Shown here one piece after another: positions 1-12,005 of a stretch of DNA of 64,000 bases. Where the stretch lies: assembly GCF_006475605.1 (NCBI RefSeq), contig NZ_SSBC01000010.1:1178001-1242000 (forward strand), written 5' to 3'. This stretch comes from Asticcacaulis tiandongensis. Lineage in GTDB: Bacteria; Pseudomonadota; Alphaproteobacteria; Caulobacterales; Caulobacteraceae. Each line of letters begins with the position of its first letter. Position 1 is the first letter of the stretch. The translations under genes were made by a program, and so were the position numbers. A model generated the notes under the pieces. It saw nothing but the letters and a program-made list of their open reading frames with translations. It ran no database searches and was not told where the DNA came from.

Positions 1-1
1 C

Positions 2-778
2 GTGGGCGACCGCCTGCTGAAACGCTTTTCCGCCGCCAAGGCTCAAAAGGCGGCCGCCGAAGACCGCGAGGACACAAAAGCCGCCCAAGATGCCAAGGAC
101 GAAATGGACGGCCTAGTCCTATTTAAGGGCGACATGCAGACCTTTGTGCGGTTGTACGCCTTCCTGTCGCAGATATTTGACTATGGAAACACGGACATCG
201 AAAAGCGTTTCCTGTTTTATAAACGCTTAATCCCGCTACTGGAGTTCGGGCGCGAGCGCGATACTGTCGATCTGTCCAAGGTAATCCTCACCCATCACAA
301 TCTGCGCAATACAGGTAAGCAGCCGCTGAACCTCCACCCTGGTCAGTCAGAGAAGCTGAAACCCATGGACGCGGCCGGCACGGGTTCGGTGCAGGAAAAA
401 AACAAGGCGCTGCTCAACGAAATTATCGAGAAGGTCAATGGCCTGTTCGAGGGCGAACTGACGGACAATGATCAGTTGGTTTATGTCAACGGTCTGGTCA
501 TGAAAATGGTCGAAAACGAAACGCTGATTCAACAGGCTGCCAACAATTCCAAGGAACAGTTCGCCAATTCGCCGGACCTGAAGACCGCCCTGGTCAATGC
601 CATCATGGATGCACTCGACGCGCATAGCACCATGAGTTCACAAGCGCTGAATTCCGAACGCATACGCGACGGGCTCAAAGATACGCTGCTTGGCCCGGCA
701 GGACTGTACGAAACATTGAGAGCCAAGTCATCGGGCGATCCCGCAATTAGGCCCCATGCTGCCCTCTCATCACAGTGA
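2..778 (+). CDS. hsdR: Type I restriction enzyme subunit R (HsdR), C-terminal part, cut by window edge
   Basis: The frame is open from the first bases of the window, so only the last ~258 residues are seen. The stretch LFKGDMQTFVRLYAFLSQ followed by a charged helix and DLSKVILTHHNLR matches the helical C-terminal region of HsdR, which contacts the methylase (HsdM/HsdS) core of type I restriction-modification complexes. The motor and nuclease domains would lie left of the window, as would hsdM and hsdS in the usual order. The tail after residue ~235 is low in conservation. The apparent GTG at position 2 is not a real start. Assignment rests on recalled family similarity, not a search. Confidence 0.8.
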   Translation: MGDRLLKRFSAAKAQKAAAEDREDTKAAQDAKDEMDGLVLFKGDMQTFVRLYAFLSQIFDYGNTDIEKRFLFYKRLIPLLEFGRERDTVDLSKVILTHHNLRNTGKQPLNLHPGQSEKLKPMDAAGTGSVQEKNKALLNEIIEKVNGLFEGELTDNDQLVYVNGLVMKMVENETLIQQAANNSKEQFANSPDLKTALVNAIMDALDAHSTMSSQALNSERIRDGLKDTLLGPAGLYETLRAKSSGDPAIRPHAALSSQ

Positions 779-981
779 AGGTCTAGTAGGGTTGAGCACT
801 TAGCGCCCATTCCGGACATGCGACACGAACGGCAAAATCTCGAAACCAGACATTGGTTACCGCCCTAGGCGGGCGCGGAACACCGCGCCTTTATCCTTGC
901 CTGCACGAGGGTGAAGCCCTTAGCATTCTTTTCGAATCACGATGCCTTACCTGTGAGGGCATCCAACAAAAGGGGGCGGCT

Positions 982-2715
982 TTGGCGTTCAAACTTCCAG
1001 AAGGTGTCGAACATTCGCTGATGCGGCTAGTGCTGCGGATCGAAGACGATCTGAAGGCGCAACGCACACGCTATCCCTTGTTCGCCGACGCTAGCGTAAT
1101 GGAAGACATGATGGACATCCGCACGGCCATTGAGCGGTTGAGTGTCGATGGAAAGCGTGGCGGGCACAGCACCTATGATTATGTGCGGCGACTGATCATT
1201 ATTGCTGACGCGGCCCAGCGGCTTTCAAAGTTCTTTGATGAGACGGAACGGGGGCAGGTGTTTCTGCTCTCGACGGACCTACCCATCGATCAGGCCAGCT
1301 ACGCGGGCATACCCAGAGGGACGCCACTGGCCGATGTACTGAACGCCCTGTCAATTGTCGCCGAGAACGAGGCCTATCAGGCTGAGAATGGCTATAAGGA
1401 GTCGGTTTTCTCACATCTGGCTTCAGCTGAAGAGGATTTCGATATCATCCGCGGGGACCCTAATCCGGCCATTCTCCATCGGGATGGTGACCGTTACAGG
1501 CGTACCTTCCCCTCCCCCCATCGCGAGTTCATCCTGTTAGTCGACGCCATTCAAACCGCTTTACAAAGGCGCGGACAGGACGCTGTCGAGCGCGCGTCTA
1601 TTCAAAACATTACGCGTTTTGTACGGGATGCTTTCGATGTGCGTCACGACTCGTCCTACCCACAGCGCTTGTTTGCGATAGCCAATGAGGCACCCCACAT
1701 ACTGCGTAAGCGGGGCACACCAGCACAGCGTCAGGTTTTTAACGCCCGACTGCACCCGAATTTCGCAGGTCTGGAGACAGTTTCCGACGCGTTGACCGCG
1801 ATGTCGCAAATCGCGGTACAGGCCGGCGCCCGCGGTGGGCCCGCCGAGCAAGCCCCCCTGCCGACTGCTCTGTCACCTCAGGTGATCGCCGAGATCGAGA
1901 AATTGGTTCCTGATCAGCAGATCGCGCCCGTCCAGTTCCAGTTTACGGGTACCAAACTCTCCGTCCTGCACACCCCTGCCACCCCCACCGCCGGGGATAA
2001 GGCACTGGTCGCATCAGTACGGAGAGCTGTCGTGCAAGCCGGCGACGATCTGCTGGCTGACCTTGCCACATCGCAATGCGATCCACGCTTCCTCAAAAGG
2101 ATGCAAACCCTGCACGGGGAGGTCTGCGACAATAATGACATCGTCTATATCGGCATTCAAAGCCAACAGTGTCAAATTGCCGCCAGGGCTTATGAAGACG
2201 AGTTTGCGCCTCACTACATCGCGCTTTTGGCCAGCTACTTTGCCACTTTAACCGACTATGTGGCTCAGTTTCCCGATTGGCACCGCTTCTTGGAAAAGTC
2301 TGTGTCTGCGAAAATCCTCGAAGCTGAACTTCTGGAAGACCTCAGAGCCGTACTGACGGATATGACGTCCGCTATAGCTGTGCCGGACGCAGTCGAACAC
2401 GAGGTCACCGAAAAGCTCGAATGGCTGAGCAGCTTAATTAGCGAGGATCAACCAGTCTCCAAAAAGCGCGTGCTCGCAGTTGCGCTCTCGCTGCAAAACC
2501 TAGCGACAGTCGTGGTAAAATGGGGCACTGGGTTGGCGGCAAAGACAGCGGAGAAGACACAAGACTATCTCTCCACAGCCGCCGCGCTCGGCATTGTGAC
2601 GCTGATCGGTAATGTGCTTTGGCGGTTCATTCCGATCTCCAATCTAATCGCCAAGCAACCTTGGCTTCAGCAATCCCTACAATGGTTGAAAGAGCTCGCT
2701 GACGTGTTGAAATGA
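982..2715 (+). CDS. Unrecognised 577-residue protein downstream of hsdR
   Basis: I do not recognise a family. The reading frame is open back to a TTG at 853, but the best start is the TTG at 982, which has AGGGGG at 971-976 at good spacing. The body is mostly predicted helical and acidic, with a Pro/Ala-rich linker near residues 300-315. A weakly hydrophobic stretch near the C-terminus (YLSTAAALGIVTLIGNVLW) is followed by an amphipathic Trp-rich tail, suggesting membrane association at the C-terminus. No nucleotide-binding, nuclease or protease motif is visible. It follows the restriction gene on the same strand by ~200 bp, so it may be part of the same defence or mobile module. That role is inference only. 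Confidence 0.65.
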   Translation: MAFKLPEGVEHSLMRLVLRIEDDLKAQRTRYPLFADASVMEDMMDIRTAIERLSVDGKRGGHSTYDYVRRLIIIADAAQRLSKFFDETERGQVFLLSTDLPIDQASYAGIPRGTPLADVLNALSIVAENEAYQAENGYKESVFSHLASAEEDFDIIRGDPNPAILHRDGDRYRRTFPSPHREFILLVDAIQTALQRRGQDAVERASIQNITRFVRDAFDVRHDSSYPQRLFAIANEAPHILRKRGTPAQRQVFNARLHPNFAGLETVSDALTAMSQIAVQAGARGGPAEQAPLPTALSPQVIAEIEKLVPDQQIAPVQFQFTGTKLSVLHTPATPTAGDKALVASVRRAVVQAGDDLLADLATSQCDPRFLKRMQTLHGEVCDNNDIVYIGIQSQQCQIAARAYEDEFAPHYIALLASYFATLTDYVAQFPDWHRFLEKSVSAKILEAELLEDLRAVLTDMTSAIAVPDAVEHEVTEKLEWLSSLISEDQPVSKKRVLAVALSLQNLATVVVKWGTGLAAKTAEKTQDYLSTAAALGIVTLIGNVLWRFIPISNLIAKQPWLQQSLQWLKELADVLK

Positions 2716-2744
2716 GCAGCATTGCCTAAGTCGTGTCTGCCCGT

Positions 2745-2933
2745 CTACACCGTAACTGAAACGGGGATAAGCCCGCCTGGTGGCTCTAGTTGCTCTGGCA
2801 CCAGTCGTGTCGGCGCCCAATGTAGACATTCTTGGTGCGAAGGATAATTTTGCCGGAAAGCGGACGACCGAACGCTGCCTAGAGCATTGATGACTTCATC
2901 GCCTTGAGCTAGTTTCGCCATGTTGACAGACAT
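2745..2933 (-). CDS. Doubtful small ORF, 62 residues
   Basis: This is a minus-strand frame in the gap between the 577-residue protein and the Cys-rich gene. From the ATG at 2933 it encodes a 62-residue product with balanced composition and a Pro-rich end (EPPGGLIPVSV). No strong ribosome binding site is visible and I recognise no family. The protein-like composition is the only argument for it, so it may be chance. Confidence 0.22.
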   Translation of the reverse strand: MSVNMAKLAQGDEVINALGSVRSSAFRQNYPSHQECLHWAPTRLVPEQLEPPGGLIPVSVTV

Positions 2934-2980
2934 CACGAACCCGAACAAATTCACCACTCACAATTGCATCGAGTAGTAAA

Positions 2981-3451
2981 ATGAGTGTTACGGACGGCAA
3001 GCTGGCGGAGATTTGGAATCAGACCAAAATTCCAGTGATCCTCCGGAGGGATGGTAACGGCGAGAGATTGCGAGCCAGGCTGCCTTTCAGCGAAAGCAAT
3101 CGCACTTGGTTGCAGACATGCGGCAAATCAGCCCCGGTTTGGATGTCAAACCCTAAGCTTTTATGCTGGGAACTTCCCAAAAGTTGGTTCAACAAATTCG
3201 TCGATAGCGCTCTTGTAAAATATGGCCAGTTGTATGTGATCCAACCCTACCGCGAACAAGAAATCTGCGCGCGTGCTTGCATGGAAGCAACTGGTCACGA
3301 ATGCCAATGCTCATGCATGGGAGCGCATCATGGAAGCGGCAGTAGCGGGGGGTGGTTTGAAGTCTCTGAGACGTTTGCCGTTCGCCACTCCAAGCCGGAA
3401 CTAGCATGTCGACTGATGGTTGCTCGATCTTCGCCGCCTACAAGAGGCTAG
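2981..3451 (+). CDS. Conserved hypothetical protein with Cys cluster, 156 residues
   Basis: The centre carries a Tyr/Gln/Glu-rich block (YGQLYVIQPYREQEIC) followed by a dense Cys cluster, CARACMEATGHECQCSCMG, then a WFEVSETFA block. I recall this order from unannotated proteins found sporadically across proteobacteria, often in variable regions. The six cysteines within ~20 residues suggest metal binding or a structural zinc site. No function is known to me. The start ATG at 2981 lacks a strong ribosome binding site (GAG about 10 nt upstream). It stands alone between accessory genes. Family recognition is from memory; the metal-binding role is inferred. Confidence 0.6.
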   Translation: MSVTDGKLAEIWNQTKIPVILRRDGNGERLRARLPFSESNRTWLQTCGKSAPVWMSNPKLLCWELPKSWFNKFVDSALVKYGQLYVIQPYREQEICARACMEATGHECQCSCMGAHHGSGSSGGWFEVSETFAVRHSKPELACRLMVARSSPPTRG

Positions 3452-3698
3452 GTGCTGCCGGTCGCCTCACTACTCTACAGTACCCCCATGCCCTTCAGGA
3501 GGCACGATAGTTTCAGTTGGCTGGCTTTGCATCGGAAGAACCTTAGTCCGCACTAAGGGATAAAATTCCAGGGGGCAAAGTCGCTATCACCGCGGCAAGC
3601 ACTGGGGGGAACAGGTCCGTATGGCGCAATGGTGGGCAGCGGCGACGTCACTTGGTGACACTATCATCACAGGAACGACAGTCGCGTTGTAGGCCATT

Positions 3699-4310
3699 CT
3701 AAGCTGCCTTTTTTGCTTTGTGAGCTATAATAATTTCTTCCTGCGTCTTCAGGGATGCCATGACGGCTTCGGCGGTATGCTTATGAGTCTTGGTGAAGAT
3801 TTTGCCAGCAACCGTATCAATCATCGCAAACCGCCAGTCTGAGTAGGCGTTTTGTTGCAAAATGAGCTCCATCAGATGAATGCCCATTCCTGCTACTGCC
3901 GATGTCAGTCGCTCATCTTTGTACATCCAGGGTACATAGGTCGTAATCACGCCCTTCTTTTCCAAGGCGAAGGTCGGCCTCAACGTGACGATTAGCTCAT
4001 TTTGGGGCCCCGCGAACTCCCCGACCGGAGGCTGGTGCGCTTTTCCGGGATTGGCCAATTTCCAGTTATACATACCCTTGAGTGCATCATGATTATCCTG
4101 CCTTTGATGGGCTTTGGACATATTCATCATCACGTCACCGACGGCCTGATCGAACGATTTATCGTCTAAGAAAATTTGACCCGCCGCTCGCTTCGCCGCC
4201 CAAAAGTAATCCCTGCCCCCAGGCTCAGCGTATTGAGCCAATTTTCTTGTCCGTGCAACCGAATCGAGGCAATCATGGAATAGAAACGTAGTTAAGCTCA
4301 TCCGAGTCAT
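3699..4310 (-). CDS. Unknown 203-residue protein, last gene of the microprotein block
   Basis: The start ATG at 4310 has AGGAG seven bases upstream (4319-4323 region), which is good evidence for translation. The product is soluble-looking, with a Lys/Ala-rich helical C-terminus (HKAKKAA) and a central Pro-containing loop (GKAHQPPVGEFAGPQNE). I recognise no domain. It lies 69 bp downstream of the 32-residue CxxC gene and continues the same-strand series that starts at 6308, so it is probably co-transcribed. The conserved-looking His, Asp and Cys near the N-terminus (FHDCLDS) could be functional but this is guesswork. Confidence 0.6.
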   Translation of the reverse strand: MTRMSLTTFLFHDCLDSVARTRKLAQYAEPGGRDYFWAAKRAAGQIFLDDKSFDQAVGDVMMNMSKAHQRQDNHDALKGMYNWKLANPGKAHQPPVGEFAGPQNELIVTLRPTFALEKKGVITTYVPWMYKDERLTSAVAGMGIHLMELILQQNAYSDWRFAMIDTVAGKIFTKTHKHTAEAVMASLKTQEEIIIAHKAKKAA

Positions 4311-4379
4311 ATTCGGTCTCCTTGGGGTTCAGCACCAAGGACGTGCTGATTCGAAAAGGTTAACAACGAACAATTTTCA

Positions 4380-4478
4380 CTAAAACTGGAACTTGTGATT
4401 AGGTGTGGCCCAACCGCATCGAAAGCAAACCACTGTCAGATGCTGGCTGACATGCCGATGACCTGATGGCGCGGTCAT
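4380..4478 (-). CDS. 32-residue microprotein with CxxC
   Basis: The ATG at 4478 overlaps the stop of the preceding proline-rich gene (ATGA) and is preceded by AGGAAGAA, a good ribosome binding site. The product ends with VVCFRCGWATPNHKFQF, a single CxxC knuckle followed by His, which resembles half of a zinc ribbon. The overlap and ribosome site argue that it is translated. No known family is recognised. It could bind zinc as a dimer or together with a partner from the same operon; that is inference. Confidence 0.5.
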   Translation of the reverse strand: MTAPSGHRHVSQHLTVVCFRCGWATPNHKFQF

Positions 4479-4576
4479 TTCTTCCTAGAGTTCGGCGGTG
4501 GCGGTGGCGGTGGCGGTACAGCGGTCATTTTCGGCGGGAACGCACCGTTTCCAATGAATGTAGGCTTTTTACTCAA
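4475..4576 (-). CDS. Proline-rich microprotein 4 (33 residues, TTG start)
   Basis: Reading from a TTG at 4576 gives a 33-residue product whose second half is KMTAVPPPPPPPPNSRKK. The start lies one base after the stop of the upstream gene and has GAAGGGG nine bases before it. The N-terminal part (GNGAFPPKMT) aligns with the two upstream microproteins around a shared Gly-x-Pro...Met-Thr-(Pro) core, so these look like tandem duplicates that have diverged. The Pro run encoded by repeating CCG/CCA codons could be a ligand for SH3/EVH1-like or other poly-Pro binding domains, or a flexible spacer. Function unknown. Confidence 0.55.
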   Translation of the reverse strand: MSKKPTFIGNGAFPPKMTAVPPPPPPPPNSRKK

Positions 4577-4577
4577 T

Positions 4578-4703
4578 CTACTTCCCCTTCTGAGGAAGTG
4601 ACTTGGCAGCAGGCGGACTGGGCGGGGGCGGAGGCGGAAGTGCCGGCGCGGGCGTCATTAAACGGGCCGGCATACCGTCTTGCGCAATTTTCCGTTCAGT
4701 CAC
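4578..4703 (-). CDS. Proline-rich microprotein 3 (41 residues, GTG start)
   Basis: A GTG at 4703 overlaps the upstream gene by eight bases (GTGACTGA), the same overlap geometry as seen between the membrane protein and the first microprotein. AGAGGA precedes it at normal spacing. The product contains DGMPARLMTPAPALPPPPPP and ends with Lys residues. The core G-M-P-x-R-x-MTP matches the neighbours. An internal ATG at 4673 is a weaker alternative start without a comparable ribosome site. No known family; the paralogy to its neighbours is visible by eye. Confidence 0.55.
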   Translation of the reverse strand: MTERKIAQDGMPARLMTPAPALPPPPPPSPPAAKSLPQKGK

Positions 4704-4797
4704 GTGTCTTTCCTCTCTTTGCTGGTGGTGCCGGCGGCGGCGGGGGTGTCATCGGTCGGGATGGTACGCCGCCTTTTTCCTGGTAACCGGAACTCAT
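4696..4797 (-). CDS. Proline-rich microprotein 2 (33 residues)
   Basis: The ATG at 4797 is one base after the stop of microprotein 1 and has AGAGGA at good spacing inside the end of that gene. The product carries GGVPSRPMTPPPPPAPPAKR and ends in a basic tail. It shares the Gly-Val/Met-Pro-x-Arg-x-Met-Thr-Pro-Pro core with microproteins 3 and 4. The tight spacing implies translational coupling. Function is unknown; basic ends plus poly-Pro suggest protein-protein binding. Confidence 0.55.
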   Translation of the reverse strand: MSSGYQEKGGVPSRPMTPPPPPAPPAKRGKTRD

Positions 4798-4798
4798 G

Positions 4799-4945
4799 CT
4801 ATTCCTCTTCGTTAATAATAGTTGGCGGTGGATCTTGAGGCGTGGTCGGCTGGGGCGGAGACGCTTCTTCTGGAATTGGCGTCATATTCCTCGCATCAAT
4901 TGCCTTTTGCAAAGGATCAACCGGCAGAAAATTTTCATCACTCAT
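4799..4945 (-). CDS. Proline-rich microprotein 1 (48 residues)
   Basis: The ATG at 4945 overlaps the 3' end of the membrane protein gene by eight bases (ATGAGTGA) and is preceded by AGGAGGGG, a strong ribosome binding site. The product is acidic at both ends, with a central ARNMTPIPEEASPPQPTTPQ segment. The Met-Thr-Pro motif links it to the three basic microproteins downstream, although its proline stretch is broken by Glu, Gln and Thr. The overlap argues for translational coupling to the membrane protein. No known family. Confidence 0.6.
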   Translation of the reverse strand: MSDENFLPVDPLQKAIDARNMTPIPEEASPPQPTTPQDPPPTIINEEE

Positions 4946-5597
4946 GGGATTCGACCCCTCCTATGCTGGACTGGGAGTCAGACTGTATTTGACTCGCCTC
5001 GATGATTAAATCTACTTTCGAATTCGCAACGACACTCGGCATTTCGAACACCACCTGAGGCCTTTGGACACTTGGCGTTTCGGCTACCTTCTTCTGAGTA
5101 TAACCTGCATTTCCAATGCAGAAGATAATTGTCAGCACAATGCCTAAGAAAAACGCGATCGCTGATGACCAGTTCACAACAGCCAAGGTTTTGTTCCACC
5201 GGCTCCGTTTGTTTTCAAACTTTTTGTCCTGCTTAAGATACCACTGTTCGCAGAAGTAGATATGCCTTTTCACTGCCTGATTACTGATCAAGAACGAAAA
5301 CATTGTTGCCGTCACAGCCACGCCAAAGGCGATCCAAGATCCGTACAGTAACCACAATTGAGCGGTAGATGGAGCTTTGATGATGTCTTTCAAAAACGTC
5401 ACGGAGAGAGCGAGAAATGCCGTTGATAGCGTAAGCACCTGCTTGTCAAAGGCATCGTGGTTCGCAGCAATTATCTTCCAGCCGTCGGCCTCGTGTCGAT
5501 CATACAGTTCTTGAAGCCTGAGCTTGTGTTTATCGTCCGCTTCTTTCCTTACGACATCCTGCTGCACAGGTCGCTTCCACTTGAACTTAGCCAACAC
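4938..5597 (-). CDS. Three-pass membrane protein of the microprotein block
   Basis: A 219-residue product. The N-terminal ~50 residues are charged and helical (a likely coiled coil, KHKLRLQELYDRHEADGW). Three hydrophobic segments follow at about residues 55-75, 82-107 and 139-163, with a basic loop between the second and third. The last ~50 residues are a polar, Ser/Gln-rich tail. The layout recalls small membrane effectors of the SLATT type (two-TM effectors linked to nucleotide-signalled defence), but I cannot show homology. The start is GTG at 5597 or TTG at 5594; GGAG lies just upstream and fits the TTG spacing better. It overlaps microprotein 1 by eight bases. Confidence 0.65.
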   Translation of the reverse strand: MLAKFKWKRPVQQDVVRKEADDKHKLRLQELYDRHEADGWKIIAANHDAFDKQVLTLSTAFLALSVTFLKDIIKAPSTAQLWLLYGSWIAFGVAVTATMFSFLISNQAVKRHIYFCEQWYLKQDKKFENKRSRWNKTLAVVNWSSAIAFFLGIVLTIIFCIGNAGYTQKKVAETPSVQRPQVVFEMPSVVANSKVDLIIEASQIQSDSQSSIGGVESHE

Positions 5598-5695
5598 TTT
5601 ACTCCGGCTTTGTCATCACTAAGCTTCATGATAGGCCGTAAGCATGTCAAGCTAGAAGCGCCGCCGTGACACCATAGATTGAATCATGGTTGAGG

Positions 5696-5977
5696 CTACA
5701 AACCCCAATTCTTTCTGATGTATTCCGCGACTTCATCTGAGACGTTCTGCCATGAGGCATTATTGTTCGTAGCATCCACTACATAAACAGAATCATTCCT
5801 GTCCATAACCGCCCACAAGCGCGTCACAGCCTGCGAGGCCGTCAGGGTCGAATTGACATACCAATACGATTTGTGGATTTTGGCCCAGCCCCCTAGCGTC
5901 TTAATTTCGGCGATAACTTTCTCATAGTTTTGTCCGGGTGCGTACAAATCATATGAAATGTGAAGATTGTTAGCCAT
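5696..5977 (-). CDS. SinR-family protein (Cas2/VapD-like fold)
   Basis: A 93-residue product beginning MANNLHISYDLYAPGQNY and containing a HKSYWYVNS block and VYVVDATNNNASW. I recall this pattern from the family databases call SinR family, small proteins with a Cas2/VapD-like ferredoxin fold (beta-strand N-terminus ending in Tyr-Asp, here ISYDL). Some relatives are ribonucleases or toxins; activity here is not shown. The ATG at 5977 is chosen because AAGGA sits eight bases upstream; a GTG six bases earlier is too close to it. No CRISPR array or other cas gene is present, so this is not a CRISPR adaptation gene. Confidence 0.7.
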   Translation of the reverse strand: MANNLHISYDLYAPGQNYEKVIAEIKTLGGWAKIHKSYWYVNSTLTASQAVTRLWAVMDRNDSVYVVDATNNNASWQNVSDEVAEYIRKNWGL

Positions 5978-6068
5978 GTGCACTATCCTTCTGATGTCTT
6001 CTTTTGCCAGCGCTTAATTGCGTCTGTTTGTCGTTGAGAAATGGGGCCGCGAATGCGACCCCGCTCTG

Positions 6069-6308
6069 TTAGCCCTTCGGCGGGTTCGGATCGCGCCCGT
6101 GGCTATCGCTTTGAGCGATGCGGCCGTCCAGATTATGGATGCGAAGCTCCGTCCTCTGGTTTTGGCTTACCTGCCGGCCGTAATCGATAGCCTCACGCTT
6201 TGTGTCGAAATGGCCAGAAGAACGTTCACCGCCTCCGCGCTTCACGTCCCAGCCGCCACCAGCATTGGGTACGACATGATGGCTGTCGGGACCTTTTTTG
6301 CCTGCCAT
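6069..6308 (-). CDS. DUF2188 domain protein
   Basis: A 79-residue product with the DUF2188 pattern: HHVVPNAGGGWDVKRGGGER, a Thr-Lys-x-Glu-Ala helix, and the ending GRDPNPPKG. The family is widespread, small, basic and of unknown function, often on plasmids and islands. AGGAGAG lies five bases before the ATG at 6308. It is the first gene of the minus-strand block and its promoter must lie in the 6309-6442 gap, which carries the two operator-like repeats. Confidence 0.8.
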   Translation of the reverse strand: MAGKKGPDSHHVVPNAGGGWDVKRGGGERSSGHFDTKREAIDYGRQVSQNQRTELRIHNLDGRIAQSDSHGRDPNPPKG

Positions 6309-6342
6309 GAGAACTCTCCTTTATGGCTGCTAAAAACAAAAA

Positions 6343-6415
6343 GTATCGCTACTCCGAACAAATATGGTGAACGCCTTTCGCCTTGTCAAGGACGTAATGT
6401 ATCGCTACTCTGAAC
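6343..6415. promoter_or_regulatory. Two direct repeats, probable XRE operators
   Basis: GTATCGCTACTCYGAAC occurs at 6343-6359 and again at 6399-6415 with one difference (C/T). Each copy contains the short dyad GTA-TCGC-TAC. One copy is ~35 bp before the DUF2188 start (minus strand), the other ~28 bp before the XRE start (plus strand), the expected positions for a repressor acting on two divergent promoters. Binding by the adjacent XRE protein is inferred from location. Confidence 0.6.
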
Positions 6416-6442
6416 TTAATTTCATTTTAAATGGAGACATCT

Positions 6443-6766
6443 GTGGCCACGCCATTAGGCGAAAAAATCCGCGACCTTCGAAAAGCGAAGGGTTATACCC
6501 TTGATAGGCTCGCCGAGTTGTCAGATTCGAGTAAGAGCTATATCTGGGAACTGGAAAATAAAAACCCGCCCCGACCTTCGGCGGAGAAAATCGGCAAGAT
6601 CGCTGCGGTATTGGGCGTCACCGCCGATTATCTTATTGACCCTACAGACGCTATTAAGGTCGAAGACGCAACTGACAACGCTTTTTTTCGTAAGTATCGG
6701 GAGATGGATCCCACCACCAAAGAAAAAATCCGGCGTATGCTCGATGTCTTAGGTGATGATGAATGA
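6443..6766 (+). CDS. XRE-family transcriptional regulator
   Basis: A 107-residue DNA-binding protein with a Cro/C1-type helix-turn-helix over residues ~5-60 (GEKIRDLRKAKGYTLDRLAE, then SKSYIWELENK). The C-terminal ~45 residues form a charged helical dimerisation-like tail. The GTG at 6443 is preferred over the ATG at 6431 because GGAGA lies six bases before it and no ribosome site precedes the ATG. The gene overlaps the ImmA gene by four bases (ATGA). This arrangement is that of ImmR/ImmA and DdrO/PprI pairs, in which the protease cleaves the repressor to induce a mobile element or stress genes. Confidence 0.9.
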   Translation: MATPLGEKIRDLRKAKGYTLDRLAELSDSSKSYIWELENKNPPRPSAEKIGKIAAVLGVTADYLIDPTDAIKVEDATDNAFFRKYREMDPTTKEKIRRMLDVLGDDE

Positions 6767-7650
6767 CCGCTTCAAATGGACCGGAGCGCTGGGCGTTTGA
6801 ACTAACACACGTTTTGAATGCCGCTTATGGGACGGATCGTTTCCCTGTAGACATCATTACTTTCGCGCAGGATTATTCACGTCAACGCTTTGGCGATGAG
6901 CCGATTGTCAGGATCGTGGGAGAAGATTTGCCTGGCTTTGAGGGCGCTCTTTACAGGCTGTCCTCTGACCGAAAAGGCTGGGCAGTTATCTATAACAGCA
7001 GCATCCGTTCGAAAGGGCGCATTAATTTTACTCTAGCACATGAGTTTGGTCATTACTTGCTCCACCGTACCGCTTTCCCTGATGGGTTGCGATGTGGACA
7101 ACAAGACATTGTGCGTTGGGATTCGGATTATGGCCAAATCGAACACCAAGCAAACGTTTTCGCGTCGAATATTCTCATGCCGCTTGACGATTACCGTCGC
7201 CAAATTCCTGACAACGACAGGATTGACCTTGATGAAATAAAAGCGTGCGCAGCACGGTACGGGGTCTCTCTTGTGGCTGCTACGCTCCGCTGGTTAGGTT
7301 ACACACAGAAGCGTGCGGTTCTGGTCGTAGCCCGCGACGGTTATATTCTGTGGTCGCGGTCGAGTGAGGCCGCACTGAAATCAGGCGCATTCTTTCGAAC
7401 AGCCGGTGCACCAGTAGAAATACCGATATCCTCCCTGGCGGCGTCCCCAGCAGCGCTGTTGGATGGCGAAGGACGTATGCAGCACGGGCCTGGCGTTTGG
7501 CTTGCGGAACCCGTTGAAGAATTCACTATCTTTGCTGAACTGTACGATTTTTCGCTATCCCTCTTAATGTTGGACGATAGGCCTACAAGATTCTACCGTG
7601 TTGAAGAGGAAGGCGAGATGGACTTGCTCGACAAGATGAGGTTTCGATGA
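6763..7650 (+). CDS. ImmA/IrrE-family metallopeptidase
   Basis: A 295-residue protein with the zinc protease signature HEFGHYLLH at about residues 93-101, followed by a downstream EHQANVFASNILMP block that supplies the third metal ligand region. The N-terminal third resembles the ImmA fold; the C-terminal ~130 residues (a possible GAF-like sensor part) are less conserved. It starts inside the stop codon region of the XRE gene, so the two are co-translated. By family knowledge it should cleave the XRE repressor upon a signal. It is longer than the short ICE-type ImmA proteins, closer to IrrE-like ones. Confidence 0.9.
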   Translation: MTASNGPERWAFELTHVLNAAYGTDRFPVDIITFAQDYSRQRFGDEPIVRIVGEDLPGFEGALYRLSSDRKGWAVIYNSSIRSKGRINFTLAHEFGHYLLHRTAFPDGLRCGQQDIVRWDSDYGQIEHQANVFASNILMPLDDYRRQIPDNDRIDLDEIKACAARYGVSLVAATLRWLGYTQKRAVLVVARDGYILWSRSSEAALKSGAFFRTAGAPVEIPISSLAASPAALLDGEGRMQHGPGVWLAEPVEEFTIFAELYDFSLSLLMLDDRPTRFYRVEEEGEMDLLDKMRFR

Positions 7651-7890
7651 GGCTACTTTTGTATATCGGCCTGCCAAAACTTTAAGAACTTCACAGTCCT
7701 ATGGGTAGCATCAAAGAGGGAAGGATAACGTAGCGTTCCAGCAGTTGGAATATTATCTGTCCGCTTTTTGCCGCCCATTCCCGTGGGATACTTCCGCATT
7801 GGGCCAACAGCAGCCGATTAATCTGAGCCGCCATCCCGTTAAGCCAATATGCAGCTTTGAAAGATTTTCAGGATTGTCCGGGAATCGACA

Positions 7891-7926
7891 CGTCTTATCC
7901 GGAAAAACGACCTGTCTTATCCGGAA
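7891..7926 (+). repeat. Tandem GTCTTATCCGGAA repeats next to tRNA
   Basis: GTCTTATCCGGAA is present at 7892-7904 and 7914-7926, with a shorter related piece (TTGTCCGGGAA) at 7874-7884. They end 11 bases before the tRNA 3' end. Such short spaced repeats occur at ends of some insertion elements and at recombinase arm sites. No transposase or integrase gene is adjacent, so the role is open. Confidence 0.4.
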
Positions 7927-7937
7927 TGGACAATGAC

Positions 7938-8014
7938 TGGCGACCCCTGAGGGACTCGAACCCCCGACCTCTGCTTTAGGAAAGCCTTGCTCTATCCGGC
8001 TGAGCTAAGGGGCC
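7938..8014 (-). tRNA. tRNA-Arg (anticodon CCT)
   Basis: The minus strand folds as a 77-base tRNA including an encoded CCA. The acceptor GGCCCCT pairs with AGGGGTC (one G-T), the D arm is GCTC...GAGC, and the T arm is GGGGG-TTCGAGT-CCCTC. The anticodon loop TTCCTAA puts CCT at 34-36. The anticodon stem is odd: AGGCT faces AGCAG, so only three of five pairs form and the two outer positions are A-G and G-A. The island lies on the 3' side, the usual geometry for elements that integrate into tRNA genes. Confidence 0.88.
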
Positions 8015-8255
8015 GTCGCTCTATGGCTCTAGCATAATCCCGCCACGCCTGAGAAGGCCTGAACCGGCTTTTGCACCGAGAAATCAGCCTGTATGGTTAA
8101 CGTGGACTTTTACCCCTACATATGGTATAGAACAGAATCAGAATTTAGCGATGTCACTGATTCGGTCATGATTCGTTTCCATGTCGTTCCGCACATATGA
8201 CCTGAGCCGTTAATCTTTCAATCCGCCCCGCCGATCTGCCCTTCCCAAAGCCCCT

Positions 8256-10706
8256 TTGCGTGGCTACATATCAGCTGTGCCTGACCTGATTTCCCCTTCT
8301 GCGGCCCTACCGCGTCCCGCCAAAGACACTGGCCGCCTTGTGGCCGTTCTGGGGCCAACCAATACCGGCAAAACCCATTATGCCCTTGAGCGGATGCTGG
8401 GGCATGGCACCGGCATGATCGGCCTGCCGCTGCGGCTTCTGGCGCGCGAAGTCTATGACCGTGTGGTTAAACAAAAAGGCCCCAATGCCGTCGCCCTGAT
8501 TACCGGCGAAGAAAAGATCATACCGCGCCTGCCATCCTATTTTGTCTGTACGGTTGAGGCCATGCCGCTTGAGCGGCAGGTCGATTTTCTCGCGGTCGAT
8601 GAAATCCAGCTCTGTGCCGATACTGAACGCGGCCACGTGTTCACTGACCGCCTCCTGCACGCCCGCGGTCGGCAAGAAACGCTGTTTATGGGCGCGGGCA
8701 CCTTTGCGCCCTTGTTCCGCAATCTGTTTCCCGATGCGGAGATCATTTTCCGTGAGCGCCTGTCGCAACTCCGGTACGCGGGGCCGCGCAAGCTGACGCG
8801 GCTGCCGAAACGCTCCGCCATTGTCGCTTTTTCAACCGCGCAGGTCTATGCCATTGCCGAACTGATCCGCCGCCAACGCGGTGGCGCGGCGGTGGTTATG
8901 GGCTCCTTAAGCCCCAAGACCCGTAACGCTCAGGTTGACCTGTTTCAGCGTGGCGAGGTCGATTTCCTTGTGGCGACCGATGCTATCGGCATGGGGCTGA
9001 ACATGGATATCGAGCATGTAGCCTTTGCCGGTTTGTCGAAGTTTGACGGCAAACGCGTGCGGCCGCTCACGCCTCAGGAAGCCGCCCAGATTGCCGGTCG
9101 CGCCGGACGCTTCACCAATGAAGGCACATTCGGGGTCACCGGCGATTGTCCTGAAATGGACGAAGACCTTGTGGAGGCCATTGAAAACCACCGCTTCCTG
9201 AGTATCGATGCCGCCCAGTGGCGCAACCGTGAGCTTGATTTTTCAAGCCTTGAACAGCTGCTCAAAAGCCTGACCCGCCCCTCACCGCACCCGTCCTTGC
9301 GACTGGCCAAGGAAGCGCTGGACGAAAAGGCCCTGCGCCACCTCAGCCAGGACGAGGATATCGCTTTTAAGGCCCGCAATCCGGTCACGCTTAAAACCCT
9401 GTGGGAAGTTTGTCAGTTGCCGGACTTCCGCAAGGTGTCGCTCGATGAATTCCTGAAAACCGTCAGCTTTCTGTTCTGGTCGCGCCTCAGTTCCGAAGGC
9501 GTTGTGCCGCATGACTGGTTCGACGAACAGCTGATGCACCTCAACCATATGGATGGTGATATCGATACGCTTTCGGGGCGCTTAAGCGGCGTGCGCACCC
9601 TGTCCTATATCGCCAACCGCCCGAATTGGCTGAAGACGCCGGAACACTGGCGCGCCGCCACACGTGACCTTGAGGAGCGCCTGTCGGACGCCCTGCACGA
9701 AGCCCTAATGAAGCGCTTTGTCGATCAGCGCACCAGCGCACTGCTTAAGGCGCTGAATGCCTTTGAGGAACCCAAGCCGGAAATCAGTGAAACCGGCGAG
9801 GTCTTCCTTGAGGGCCAGAGCGTCGGTCAGTTAAACGGTCTGATGTTCACCCAAAGCAGCGGTGAAAGCCTGATTGAGGACAAGGCCATCCGTCAGGCCG
9901 CCCATCGCGCGGTCATGCCGATCCTTAAGGAACGTCTGAACGAACTGGCGCATGCGCCCTCAAAGGCCTTCAGGCTGCGCGGCGCAGAGATCCATTGGCA
10001 AGGCGCGGCTGTGGGCCGCATAGAGCCGTCGGACTACTTCAACCCTAAGGTCAGGCTGTTGTGCGACATTGACCACACGGCCTTGCAGCAGACGGCACAG
10101 AAACGACTGACCGACTTTGTGCGTCAGCAGATGATCCACACCCTGAAGCCCCTGCATCGCCTGTTTAGCGCGGCGCACGACGAAAAAACACCGGCCAATG
10201 TTCGCGCCATCGCCTATCAGTTGTATGAAAACGGCGGCATCACGCGACGCAACGAGGCGCTGAAACTCAGCCCCGAAGAGCGGAAACTGATTAAGGGTCT
10301 GGGGGTTCATGCCAACCGGTTTGTCTGGATATTACCTAAACTACCGCATGCTCAGATGAAGCCCTTTGCCCGTGCGGCCGATCACCCTCAGCGTGCCCAA
10401 AGTCTTAAGGGGCGCGTGATCATCGACGGCTATGGGGCGGTGTCGCTTAAAGCCCTGACGGAACTGGATAAGGCCTTTTCCGAAGGCCGCTTCCATAAGG
10501 GCGCGACCTATTTTAAATCCGGCGTAGTCGCTCAGGATCGGCTTATGAACGCTTTGGGCTTTGTCAAAACCCCGCCACTTAAGATCGGTGAGGGCGATGA
10601 GCGCACCGGCTGGCGACCGCGCCATGCGCCAAAGCCAAAGGCGGCACAGGCCGCTCCCGCCTATATAAACCCCTACTCCCCCTTTGCGGTATTGCGGGAC
10701 GGTTAA
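8256..10706 (+). CDS. Suv3-like DExH/D helicase-related protein
   Basis: An 816-residue superfamily 2 helicase. Motif I is GPTNTGKT (residues 33-40), the Walker B is VDEIQ (~115), and motif VI is QIAGRAGRF (~277). This set and the short GLP...LLA segment after motif I match the mitochondrial RNA helicase Suv3 and its alphaproteobacterial relatives. The C-terminal half is a long helical region with a Lys/Pro/Ala-rich tail. It would unwind RNA or act in RNA turnover. The longest frame begins at TTG 8256; GTG 8277 gives a more conventional N-terminus, and neither has a clear ribosome site. It is core, upstream of S4, fdxA and carD genes. Confidence 0.88.
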   Translation: MRGYISAVPDLISPSAALPRPAKDTGRLVAVLGPTNTGKTHYALERMLGHGTGMIGLPLRLLAREVYDRVVKQKGPNAVALITGEEKIIPRLPSYFVCTVEAMPLERQVDFLAVDEIQLCADTERGHVFTDRLLHARGRQETLFMGAGTFAPLFRNLFPDAEIIFRERLSQLRYAGPRKLTRLPKRSAIVAFSTAQVYAIAELIRRQRGGAAVVMGSLSPKTRNAQVDLFQRGEVDFLVATDAIGMGLNMDIEHVAFAGLSKFDGKRVRPLTPQEAAQIAGRAGRFTNEGTFGVTGDCPEMDEDLVEAIENHRFLSIDAAQWRNRELDFSSLEQLLKSLTRPSPHPSLRLAKEALDEKALRHLSQDEDIAFKARNPVTLKTLWEVCQLPDFRKVSLDEFLKTVSFLFWSRLSSEGVVPHDWFDEQLMHLNHMDGDIDTLSGRLSGVRTLSYIANRPNWLKTPEHWRAATRDLEERLSDALHEALMKRFVDQRTSALLKALNAFEEPKPEISETGEVFLEGQSVGQLNGLMFTQSSGESLIEDKAIRQAAHRAVMPILKERLNELAHAPSKAFRLRGAEIHWQGAAVGRIEPSDYFNPKVRLLCDIDHTALQQTAQKRLTDFVRQQMIHTLKPLHRLFSAAHDEKTPANVRAIAYQLYENGGITRRNEALKLSPEERKLIKGLGVHANRFVWILPKLPHAQMKPFARAADHPQRAQSLKGRVIIDGYGAVSLKALTELDKAFSEGRFHKGATYFKSGVVAQDRLMNALGFVKTPPLKIGEGDERTGWRPRHAPKPKAAQAAPAYINPYSPFAVLRDG

Positions 10707-10868
10707 ACCGCACCGTATTGCAAACTTTTAACAGCCGAAATGACATGCGTCGTTCGGAAACGGTCGCCTTTTCGCTTTTCAAAAGCGCAAACCCGTGCAT
10801 AAATGTCTGACAATAAAGCGGAGAATTAATCCTGATCCGCATAAAAAGTCACCGCAGGGACGCTTAAA

Positions 10869-11990
10869 ATGTCAAACATTACCTCAAAAAGCCTGTTACT
10901 CACTGGCATGGCCAGTCTGTTCTGTCTGACTATTATAGCCTGCGGGGGTGGGGGCGGGGGCGGGGGCGGAAGTTCCGGAGGCGGCGGCGGTGGCAGTTCA
11001 AGTAGCTCAAGCAGCAGCGCTTCATCCTCCTCGTCGTCATCCTCGTCCCTGAGCGGGCCACTGGCCAGCTACAGCCTGACCGGCGCTACGGATTTCGTTC
11101 ATGATCCGGCCATTATCAAACAGGGCAGTACCTATTACGTCTTCCATACCGACAAGAGCGCCACCGAAGGCGGCTTTGTCGAGATTCGCTGCTCAACCGA
11201 TAAGGTAGCCTGGACACGCTGCGGATTTGTCTTTGCCACCATGCCGTCCTGGGTCAGCGGTATAGTGCCTAACGCCACCCTGACCTGGGCGCCGGACATC
11301 AGCTATTTCAACGGAAAATATCACCTCTATTATTCCGTCTCGAGCTTTGGCTCGAATATCTCCGCGATGGGGCTGGCGACCAATAAGACGCTTGATCGCA
11401 CAAGTCCGGATTACGCGTGGGAAGATCAGGGCATGGTTCTGCGCTCAAGCACCAGTGACAATTTCAACGCCATCGACCCCAACATCTTCGTTGATACAGA
11501 TGGCAAGATTTACTTTAGCTACGGCAGCTTCTGGAACGGCATCTATCAGCGCGAGGTCGAACCAACGACAGGGATGCTTAAGGCTGGCACCGCCACGCAT
11601 CTGGCGCGACGCGCCCCTTCGGTGACCCACAACCCCATCGAAGGGCCTTCACTCGTCAAACGCGGCAGCTACTATTACCTGTTCACCGCATGGGATTTCT
11701 GCTGTGAGGCCAATGCCGCTAACAGCACCTATAAGATCACTGTCGGGCGCGGCACCTCAGCCACAGGCCCCTTCGTTGACAAGAACGGCACGGCGCTGAC
11801 GGCGGGCGGCGGGACCTTACTGCTTGAGGGCAACAGCCTGTACAGCGGCCCCGGTGGCCAGCATGTCTATCTGAGCGGCAGCGAAGACTTGATTGTTTTC
11901 CATGCCCGCCGCCTGTCGCAGAACGGCCTGCCCTATCTGTTCATCAAGAACCTGAACTGGGTTGATGACTGGCCAGTTATCGCAGACTGA
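10869..11990 (+). CDS. GH43 arabinan endo-1,5-alpha-L-arabinosidase, lipoprotein
   Basis: A 373-residue surface or periplasmic glycoside hydrolase. The signal peptide ends in a lipobox (TIIAC, Cys25), followed by a poly-Gly run and a Ser-rich linker to about residue 62. The five-bladed propeller domain shows the GH43 catalytic triad: Asp79 in FVHDPAII (base), Asp203 in AIDPNIFVD (pKa modulator) and Glu258 in IEGPSLVKRG (acid), plus the WAPDI motif. It cleaves arabinan from plant pectin. The Gly/Ser tract is made of near-repetitive codons. It sits between the helicase and S4 genes, which are usually neighbours, suggesting insertion. Confidence 0.88.
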   Translation: MSNITSKSLLLTGMASLFCLTIIACGGGGGGGGGSSGGGGGGSSSSSSSSASSSSSSSSSLSGPLASYSLTGATDFVHDPAIIKQGSTYYVFHTDKSATEGGFVEIRCSTDKVAWTRCGFVFATMPSWVSGIVPNATLTWAPDISYFNGKYHLYYSVSSFGSNISAMGLATNKTLDRTSPDYAWEDQGMVLRSSTSDNFNAIDPNIFVDTDGKIYFSYGSFWNGIYQREVEPTTGMLKAGTATHLARRAPSVTHNPIEGPSLVKRGSYYYLFTAWDFCCEANAANSTYKITVGRGTSATGPFVDKNGTALTAGGGTLLLEGNSLYSGPGGQHVYLSGSEDLIVFHARRLSQNGLPYLFIKNLNWVDDWPVIAD

Positions 11991-12005
11991 TGTATCATTC
12001 TATCC

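Follow-up and report, generated by a model that had tools for sequence, protein, structure and literature searches.

Toxin-antitoxin modules exist in which a small gene overlaps that of its partner. The SLATT proteins are predicted pore-formers, and DRT10 defence requires a SLATT protein, as described in PMC12632851. The type III secretion protein SpaO occurs at full length together with a short form made up of its C-terminal 101 residues (PMC13059759). The locus considered here can be compared with all three. It lies in a stretch of 64,000 nucleotides from Asticcacaulis tiandongensis (contig NZ_SSBC01000010.1, positions 1,178,001 to 1,242,000), referred to below as the window, and comprises a gene for a small membrane protein followed on the minus strand by a chain of five tiny frames, four of them rich in proline. 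As judged from the sequence, the locus is very probably a coding operon with free microproteins. Its arrangement is not described in the literature searched, which consisted of open-licence PMC papers as represented by their titles and the beginnings of their abstracts.

A membrane gene followed by a chain of microprotein frames

The original prediction described five tiny genes of 48, 33, 41, 33 and 32 residues behind a three-pass membrane protein, and their coordinates and frames are confirmed. The features are given below, with window positions, the content of Pro and the duplex energy between each ribosome-binding site and the anti-Shine-Dalgarno (anti-SD) sequence.

4938-5597, minus strand: membrane protein gene, 219 aa, GTG start (open reading frame (ORF) translation, hydropathy, AlphaFold2, 16 relatives)
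4799-4945, minus strand: uP1, 48 aa, 23% Pro, acidic, Met-Thr-Pro (MTP) core; start 8 nt inside the membrane gene; -10.7 kcal/mol
4696-4797, minus strand: uP2, 33 aa, 27% Pro, basic, MTP followed by PPPP; -6.0 kcal/mol
4578-4703, minus strand: uP3, 41 aa, GTG start, 29% Pro, basic, MTP core; -7.8 kcal/mol
4475-4576, minus strand: uP4, 33 aa, TTG start, 33% Pro, basic, run of eight Pro; -7.9 kcal/mol
4380-4478, minus strand: uP5, 32 aa, one CxxC, ATGA overlap with the preceding frame; -4.2 kcal/mol

From the membrane gene through uP5 the junctions measure -8, +1, -8, +1 and -4 nt, as had been reported. Start codons in the window number 5825, of which 8.9% reach an anti-SD energy of -6 kcal/mol and 24% one of -4 kcal/mol. 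The ribosome-binding sites are good for four of the five microproteins and ordinary for uP5; the strong site originally assigned to every frame thus holds for uP1-uP4 only. The chain was compared with 3000 dinucleotide shuffles of the region, counting linked frames of 30-70 aa that carry a Shine-Dalgarno (SD) site and meet at junctions of -12 to +4 nt. The observed chain has five frames against a shuffle maximum of three, reached in one shuffle, and none of the 3000 shuffles gave four or more linked frames with SD sites. When the SD condition was dropped, chains of four appeared in seven of the 3000 shuffles and chains of five in none. Across the rest of the window, both strands included, the longest chain has two frames with SD sites and three without; a whole-window count of six includes one shorter start within the membrane gene. 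Because the shuffles and the rest of the window give only shorter chains, the five-frame chain is genuine and lies beyond chance, in agreement with the improbability predicted from the junction pattern.

Synonymous codon choice is uninformative, as the 219-aa gene and the 203-aa gene further downstream score no higher than the microproteins. None of uP1-uP5 has a Pfam or NCBIfam match above chance, and uP5 has none in PADLOC, whose query set did not include uP1-uP4. An Rfam scan of positions 1-12000 returned a single tRNA at the gathering score and no RNA family within the operon. Promoter-like and terminator-like sites are no commoner than in shuffles.

The relationship among the microproteins is looser than was first thought. 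The four proline-rich frames (23-33% Pro) had been read as tandem duplicates sharing the MTP core. At the protein level, four of ten pairs are alike beyond composition (uP2/uP3, p < 0.001; uP2/uP4, 0.004; uP1/uP3, 0.01; uP3/uP4, 0.027), and to this extent the likeness stands. At the nucleotide level, the codon-shuffle p value falls below 0.05 in three of ten pairs, the lowest being 0.013 (uP3/uP4). Because this nucleotide-level likeness is slight, uP1-uP4 are best regarded as old or convergent copies, and recent tandem duplication of the DNA was rejected. A wider Gly-x-Pro core, said to be shared by three of them, is a good match to uP2 and uP3, but uP4 accommodates it only if one residue is inserted. 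uP5 resembles none of the other four, and its membership in the module is uncertain. Its description as a zinc-knuckle peptide was also rejected, as its 32 residues hold a single CxxC and scattered His, with no CCHC or paired CxxC.

The membrane protein itself combines a charged N-terminal helix, three membrane-type segments (residues 55-73, 86-104 and 144-162 by hydropathy) and a disordered C-terminal tail of 57 residues. An AlphaFold2 model based on 15 sequences places helices at 20-71, 78-122 and 133-171 (mean predicted local distance difference test score 77), and shows the tail at low confidence and without secondary structure. Within the first membrane segment, a polar K-x5-S stretch is conserved, which reads KQVLTLS in the window protein. 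The 219-aa protein has no match in Pfam, NCBIfam, PADLOC or PHROGs, and the top match of a PDB sequence search is a designed protein (E 0.011). Like a SLATT effector it is small, all-alpha and built of paired membrane helices, a form that is not specific: Foldseek against PDB and BFVD returned nothing at E <= 0.001, the best BFVD rows being uncharacterised proteins at E 0.033 and 0.056.

Relatives of the membrane protein: separate microprotein or fused tail

Sixteen distinct distant relatives of the membrane protein were found, all of which are kept in the counts and are cited by locus number. Genome searches with the window protein or with profiles built on it found matches in 2 of 100 near genomes, in 3 of 398 genomes of the order, 3 of 385 of the class and 4 of 359 of the phylum, and also in 3 of 81 from the family of G903 and in the 1 genome searched from the order of G528. 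The window's own genome, or the genome named, is counted in every case; within the genus, the only match among 25 genomes is the window's own. Collections added six loci on genome contigs, one plasmid and two viral contigs, with L020 counted as the same locus as the G063 match and the first viral contig (L035) showing the same frames as L019. The relatives fall into a long branch of nine (L019, L029, L030, L036, L037, L038, L043, L044 and L046) and a compact branch of seven (L017, L018, L021, L022, L023, L024 and L028). The window's set of four microproteins is found in none of the 16.

A separate microprotein gene was defined by rule as a frame of 30-65 aa with an anti-SD energy <= -4, a start -60 to +25 nt from the stop of the membrane gene and at least 60% PSTKQNEDG residues, leaving out in-frame starts before that stop. 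All 17 membrane genes and, as controls, 187 ORFs no shorter than 220 aa were put to this rule, which finds such a gene in five of the ten long-branch genes (the window, L019, L029, L030 and L038, with 71-85% disorder-type residues), in none of the seven compact genes and in none of the controls; 26 controls carry some such frame below the disorder limit. Five relatives (L036, L037, L043, L044 and L046) have only a fused tail, of 57-82 residues, and no separate frame. Where the tail is 29 residues or shorter (L029, L030 and L038), a separate microprotein is present in three of three genes; where it is 57 or longer, a separate microprotein is absent from five of seven, the window (57) and L019 (98) having both. 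The original prediction was to fall if homologues lacked nearby Pro-rich frames with the MTP core, and the outcome is mixed. Of the nine long-branch relatives, four retain a microprotein gene and the other five have a disordered tail; by the same rule the seven compact relatives have neither, and the exact MTP core is not conserved.

The fused genes offer a second possible source of a free tail. In all five, an in-frame ATG or GTG with an SD site lies 8-11 residues past the last membrane segment (anti-SD energies -4.1 to -9.1). Single p values for such a start range over 0.008-0.11 by codon shuffle and 0.006-0.07 against 622 sequence windows of 36 other ORFs; combined by Fisher's method they give 1.3e-4 and 1.6e-5, respectively, values that overstate the case because the loci are related and the test is post hoc. 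With TTG also allowed, the single values, left uncombined, are 0.02-0.10 and 0.006-0.12. The GTG of L036 and the ATG of L037 share one alignment column, and the tails of the window protein and L019 also hold in-frame internal starts (-7.2 and -4.2). Tail peptides may thus be freed by internal initiation in the fused genes.

Strict conservation of MTP across the relatives was rejected, and only a looser Met-then-Pro spacing is enriched. When nine tails (that of L038, with 3 residues, was left out) are pooled with ten microproteins, 19 of the 27 internal Met are followed by a Pro no more than four residues on, against 10.3 expected (p 2e-4). The enrichment persists when the window sequences are excluded (13 of 21 vs 6.5 expected, p 0.0012) and in the tails taken by themselves (13 of 19 vs 5.3, p 2e-4). 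Additionally, the tails of L043, L044 and L046 have S-[IL]-N-G-x3-[ML]-R-P in common, within an otherwise poorly aligned region.

Several of the relatives lie in a mobile context. L036, L037 and L044 sit in repeat arrays resembling integron cassettes, L030 is on a plasmid beside virD4, and L019/L035 is on a viral contig and present in a genome too. The L046 contig, which carries a Zot-like gene, is presumably a filamentous phage, and L029 presumably adjoins an integrase-like gene. Further searches were unproductive. The window protein gave no useful matches in single-sequence scans of genome or viral contigs, nor by tblastn in plasmids and phages; tblastn yielded no new relatives from L019 in phages, from L029, L037 and L044 in plasmids or from L046 in both, and L030 in plasmids returned itself alone. 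In scans of viral contigs, profiles A6 and A11 found nothing, A9 and A10 found known copies only, and L046 alone found only itself.

A proposed two-part module and its rivals

Kinship to SLATT proteins is suggested by profile searches. The RTasSLATT model of PADLOC, for which no cut-off is given, matches L029 (3.7e-6) and L019 (0.022) over the first two membrane segments and in the same register. Weak matches to other membrane effector models were obtained for L046 (2TM effector, 0.0059) and L043 (CARF-TM model, 0.0039). A genome search with RTasSLATT found 0 of 100, with controls also at 0 of 14 and hence no proof of absence, and SLATT_5 matched 3 of 140 genomes, none above its cut-off. Because the RTasSLATT and SLATT_5 matches reach the relatives weakly or under cut-off, the membrane family is termed SLATT-like and not SLATT.

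Upon the established frames, ribosome-binding sites, recurring architecture and mobile context we infer a scheme that runs from translation and internal initiation through binding, pore formation and gating to a trigger and a role in defence. As a whole, this two-part module of a SLATT-like pore effector and gating free microproteins is put forward tentatively. Its first part would be the small membrane protein, which probably oligomerises into a SLATT-like pore-type effector. The second would be at least one free intrinsically disordered microprotein of about 33-75 aa, supplied either by a tiny gene whose start is close to the end of the membrane gene or lies within it, or by in-frame initiation inside the membrane gene, where a fused tail begins; in the window, the microproteins would have been multiplied to four diversified copies. 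These would act in trans as soluble tails, binding the membrane protein via short Met/Pro motifs and, when bound, keeping it silent or setting its assembly state in the manner of an antitoxin or a channel inactivation peptide, until a perturbation of the cell such as phage or plasmid entry released the membrane protein. The gating mechanism is doubtful. It is more doubtful still that the locus represents a membrane effector module of a new class, one that makes a disordered tail as a free microprotein and in which the ratio of free tail to membrane protein sets the state of the pore in conflicts between mobile elements.

Several observations weigh against this module. The limits of the rule that separates five of ten long-branch genes from 0 of 187 controls were set after the loci had been seen, and the control ORFs are mechanical. 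The seven compact relatives are without such microproteins (the 38-aa frame of L022, at 53% disorder-type residues, is below the limit), and the second microprotein of L019 (L019u2) lacks an SD site. The post hoc test for internal starts rests on five fused loci that form two related groups, with single p values up to 0.11. In the microproteins alone, the Met/Pro spacing is near expectation (6 of 8 vs 5.05, p 0.38), and the L038 microprotein aligns with the tails of L037, L043, L044 and L046 no better than shuffles do (p 0.08-0.38). The window protein has no match to SLATT models in Pfam, NCBIfam or PADLOC, and the SLATT_5 (PF18160) match to L029 (E 0.0066, 16.3 bits) is under the 29.5-bit cut-off. 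Topology is the hardest problem of the proposed mechanism: three spans and a cytosolic N-terminus would put a fused tail outside and a free microprotein inside, making action on the same face doubtful, and charge counts (6 of 10 long-branch proteins) leave the topology unsettled.

The composition of the microproteins invites other explanations. Proline-rich antimicrobial peptides are short, basic and rich in Pro, as are uP2-uP4 and the microproteins L019u1, L029u and L030u of the corresponding loci (+4 to +10, 19-33% Pro), and the microproteins might themselves be active proline-rich peptides, intracellular or secreted without a leader, for which the membrane protein provides immunity or export. 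In the window one membrane protein goes with several peptides and a CapP-like peptidase lies nearby, both of which would suit such a role. However, uP1 is acidic (-8), L038u is rich in S/T/N/Q with 5% Pro, the peptide is fused to the membrane protein in five relatives, and the neighbouring frames put to family libraries include no recognisable exporter, which makes active peptides quite unlikely. It is very unlikely that the poly-Pro frames serve as ribosome-stalling sensors, of elongation factor P or of stress, that set downstream expression while the peptides themselves are irrelevant. Stretches of PPP do stall ribosomes, PPP or longer occurs in uP1-uP4 (eight Pro in uP4) and in L030u, and the window frames are tightly coupled; yet L019u1, L019u2, L029u and L038u are without PPP, and the downstream 203-aa gene is not a conserved neighbour.

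A further explanation, which is unlikely, treats the microproteins as assembly or scaffold ligands for the membrane protein or for a host SH3/WW-like partner, with no toxin-antitoxin logic involved, or the locus as a dual-start pair resembling holin and antiholin. Filamentous phages do not lyse their hosts, and the L046 copy stands on the Zot-like contig that we take to be one; moreover, the second product of lambda S has a longer or shorter N-terminus, whereas here it would be the C-terminal part. A three-segment membrane protein with a charged tail and possible dual products would nevertheless be consistent with such a pair, as would the short C-terminal form that accompanies full-length SpaO (PMC13059759). 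Finally, low-complexity CCN/GGN sequence can hold frames open, and codon choice gives coding no support, so the tiny frames could have arisen by accident in a repetitive, GC-rich stretch that codes for none of them. This is highly improbable given the shuffles, none of which reached four linked frames with SD sites, and the arrangement kept in four distant relatives against none of 187 controls.

Were the two-part module with free tails true, it would constitute an overlooked cargo of mobile elements, with genes of 30-60 codons that are small enough to miss in ordinary gene calling. It would also provide a mechanism for freeing a tail via alternative translation starts in a membrane family unnamed in the libraries searched, and a rule by which partners could be sought, namely disordered frames that start near or inside the ends of small membrane genes.

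Genomic neighbourhood and comparison with known systems

In L052, which covers 20 kb of sequence upstream, TnsA-like, TniB, transposase (rve and Mu-transpos_C) and TniQ-like genes are followed by HsdM, GmrSD_N and HsdS, with the rve, Mu-transpos_C and TniQ-like matches lying under their cut-offs. Within the window, a regulator and peptidase pair and a tRNA follow.

6431-7650, plus strand: helix-turn-helix (HTH) regulator and CapP-like (Peptidase_M78) pair; HTH_3 6.4e-12, Peptidase_M78 2.1e-17, PADLOC capP 7.4e-66
7938-8014: tRNA-Arg
3699-4310, minus strand: 203-aa gene, 69 nt downstream of uP5; its relatives occur without the membrane protein

The HTH/CapP-like pair is taken as defence-regulator context only, and no gene of a cyclic oligonucleotide-based antiphage signalling system (CBASS) was recognised beside it among the frames searched. 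The region from L052 to about window position 8000 is read as a Tn7-like island with putative defence cargo, and because this island carries type I restriction-modification, GmrSD-like and CapH/CapP-like genes, a defence role can be suggested for the module; the case for it is circumstantial. The undescribed membrane-linked system of the original prediction is borne out in so far as no Pfam or NCBIfam family is recognised and the island is mobile and rich in defence genes, while defence itself is circumstantial.

The 203-aa protein had been put forward as a partner of the membrane protein, a proposal that is not supported. Besides the window's own genome, 397 of the order were searched and 6 hold a match to it, a sparse distribution; the L015 match covers the last 43 residues only, and that in L016 is probably a reverse-strand artefact. 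The remaining family relatives are located as follows.

L011:7001-7612
L012:6950-7597
L013:7001-7600
L014:6980-7576

The membrane protein was undetectable in all six fetched flanks (up to 7 kb) of these matches, and because the 203-aa gene is found elsewhere without it, this gene is probably outside the system. The 203-aa protein has no Pfam, NCBIfam or PADLOC match, and tblastn in plasmids was fruitless.

In the compact branch, the gene directly upstream of the membrane gene encodes a protein of 98-132 aa that ends in CPxxPxC (six of seven) or CGIFPWC (one of seven). Its C-terminal motif, CP[LMF][WFY]P[IF]C, marks a recurring gene pair.

L017:7389-7763 (minus strand): compact-branch upstream gene with the C-terminal motif
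L018:6570-6956: the same
L021:3603-3989: the same
L022:3633-3998: the same
L023:3587-3985: the same
L024:3641-3937: the same
L028:3335-3649 (minus strand): the same

A slightly looser pattern applied to 1347 ORFs of at least 60 aa found one further match, on the opposite strand in L030. Some of the compact gene pairs come from records with the titles Parvularculaceae, Nesterenkonia, Actinomycetes, Acidobacteria and Saccharicrinis. Among other neighbours, a 620-aa protein at window positions 853-2715, on the strand opposite the operon and upstream of it in window numbering, has no significant family match. The same is true of a 95-aa protein at 5696-5983 (minus strand), upstream of the operon on its own strand, which we take to be Cas2/SinR-like. 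A 339-aa protein directly upstream of the Phyllobacterium membrane gene (L019:2865-3884) is presumably DUF2971-like.

Set beside known systems, the locus resembles the SLATT proteins, including RTasSLATT of DRT10, in having a small alpha-helical membrane protein on mobile or defence DNA. In contrast to these, the window protein has three membrane-type segments plus a disordered tail and microproteins, and the frames put to Pfam and PADLOC from the window region and from L052 include no recognisable reverse transcriptase, nucleotide cyclase (SMODS) or SLOG gene. As in toxin-antitoxin modules, a tiny coupled gene stands beside a membrane protein on mobile DNA; unlike in such modules, the microprotein is downstream, disordered, present in up to four copies and without a match in Pfam or NCBIfam. 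The SpaO type of internal start is similar in that the C-terminal part of the protein is possibly made as a separate accompanying product. Here, however, that product would be the disordered tail of a membrane protein, which in other lineages is a separate gene and in the window is multiplied.

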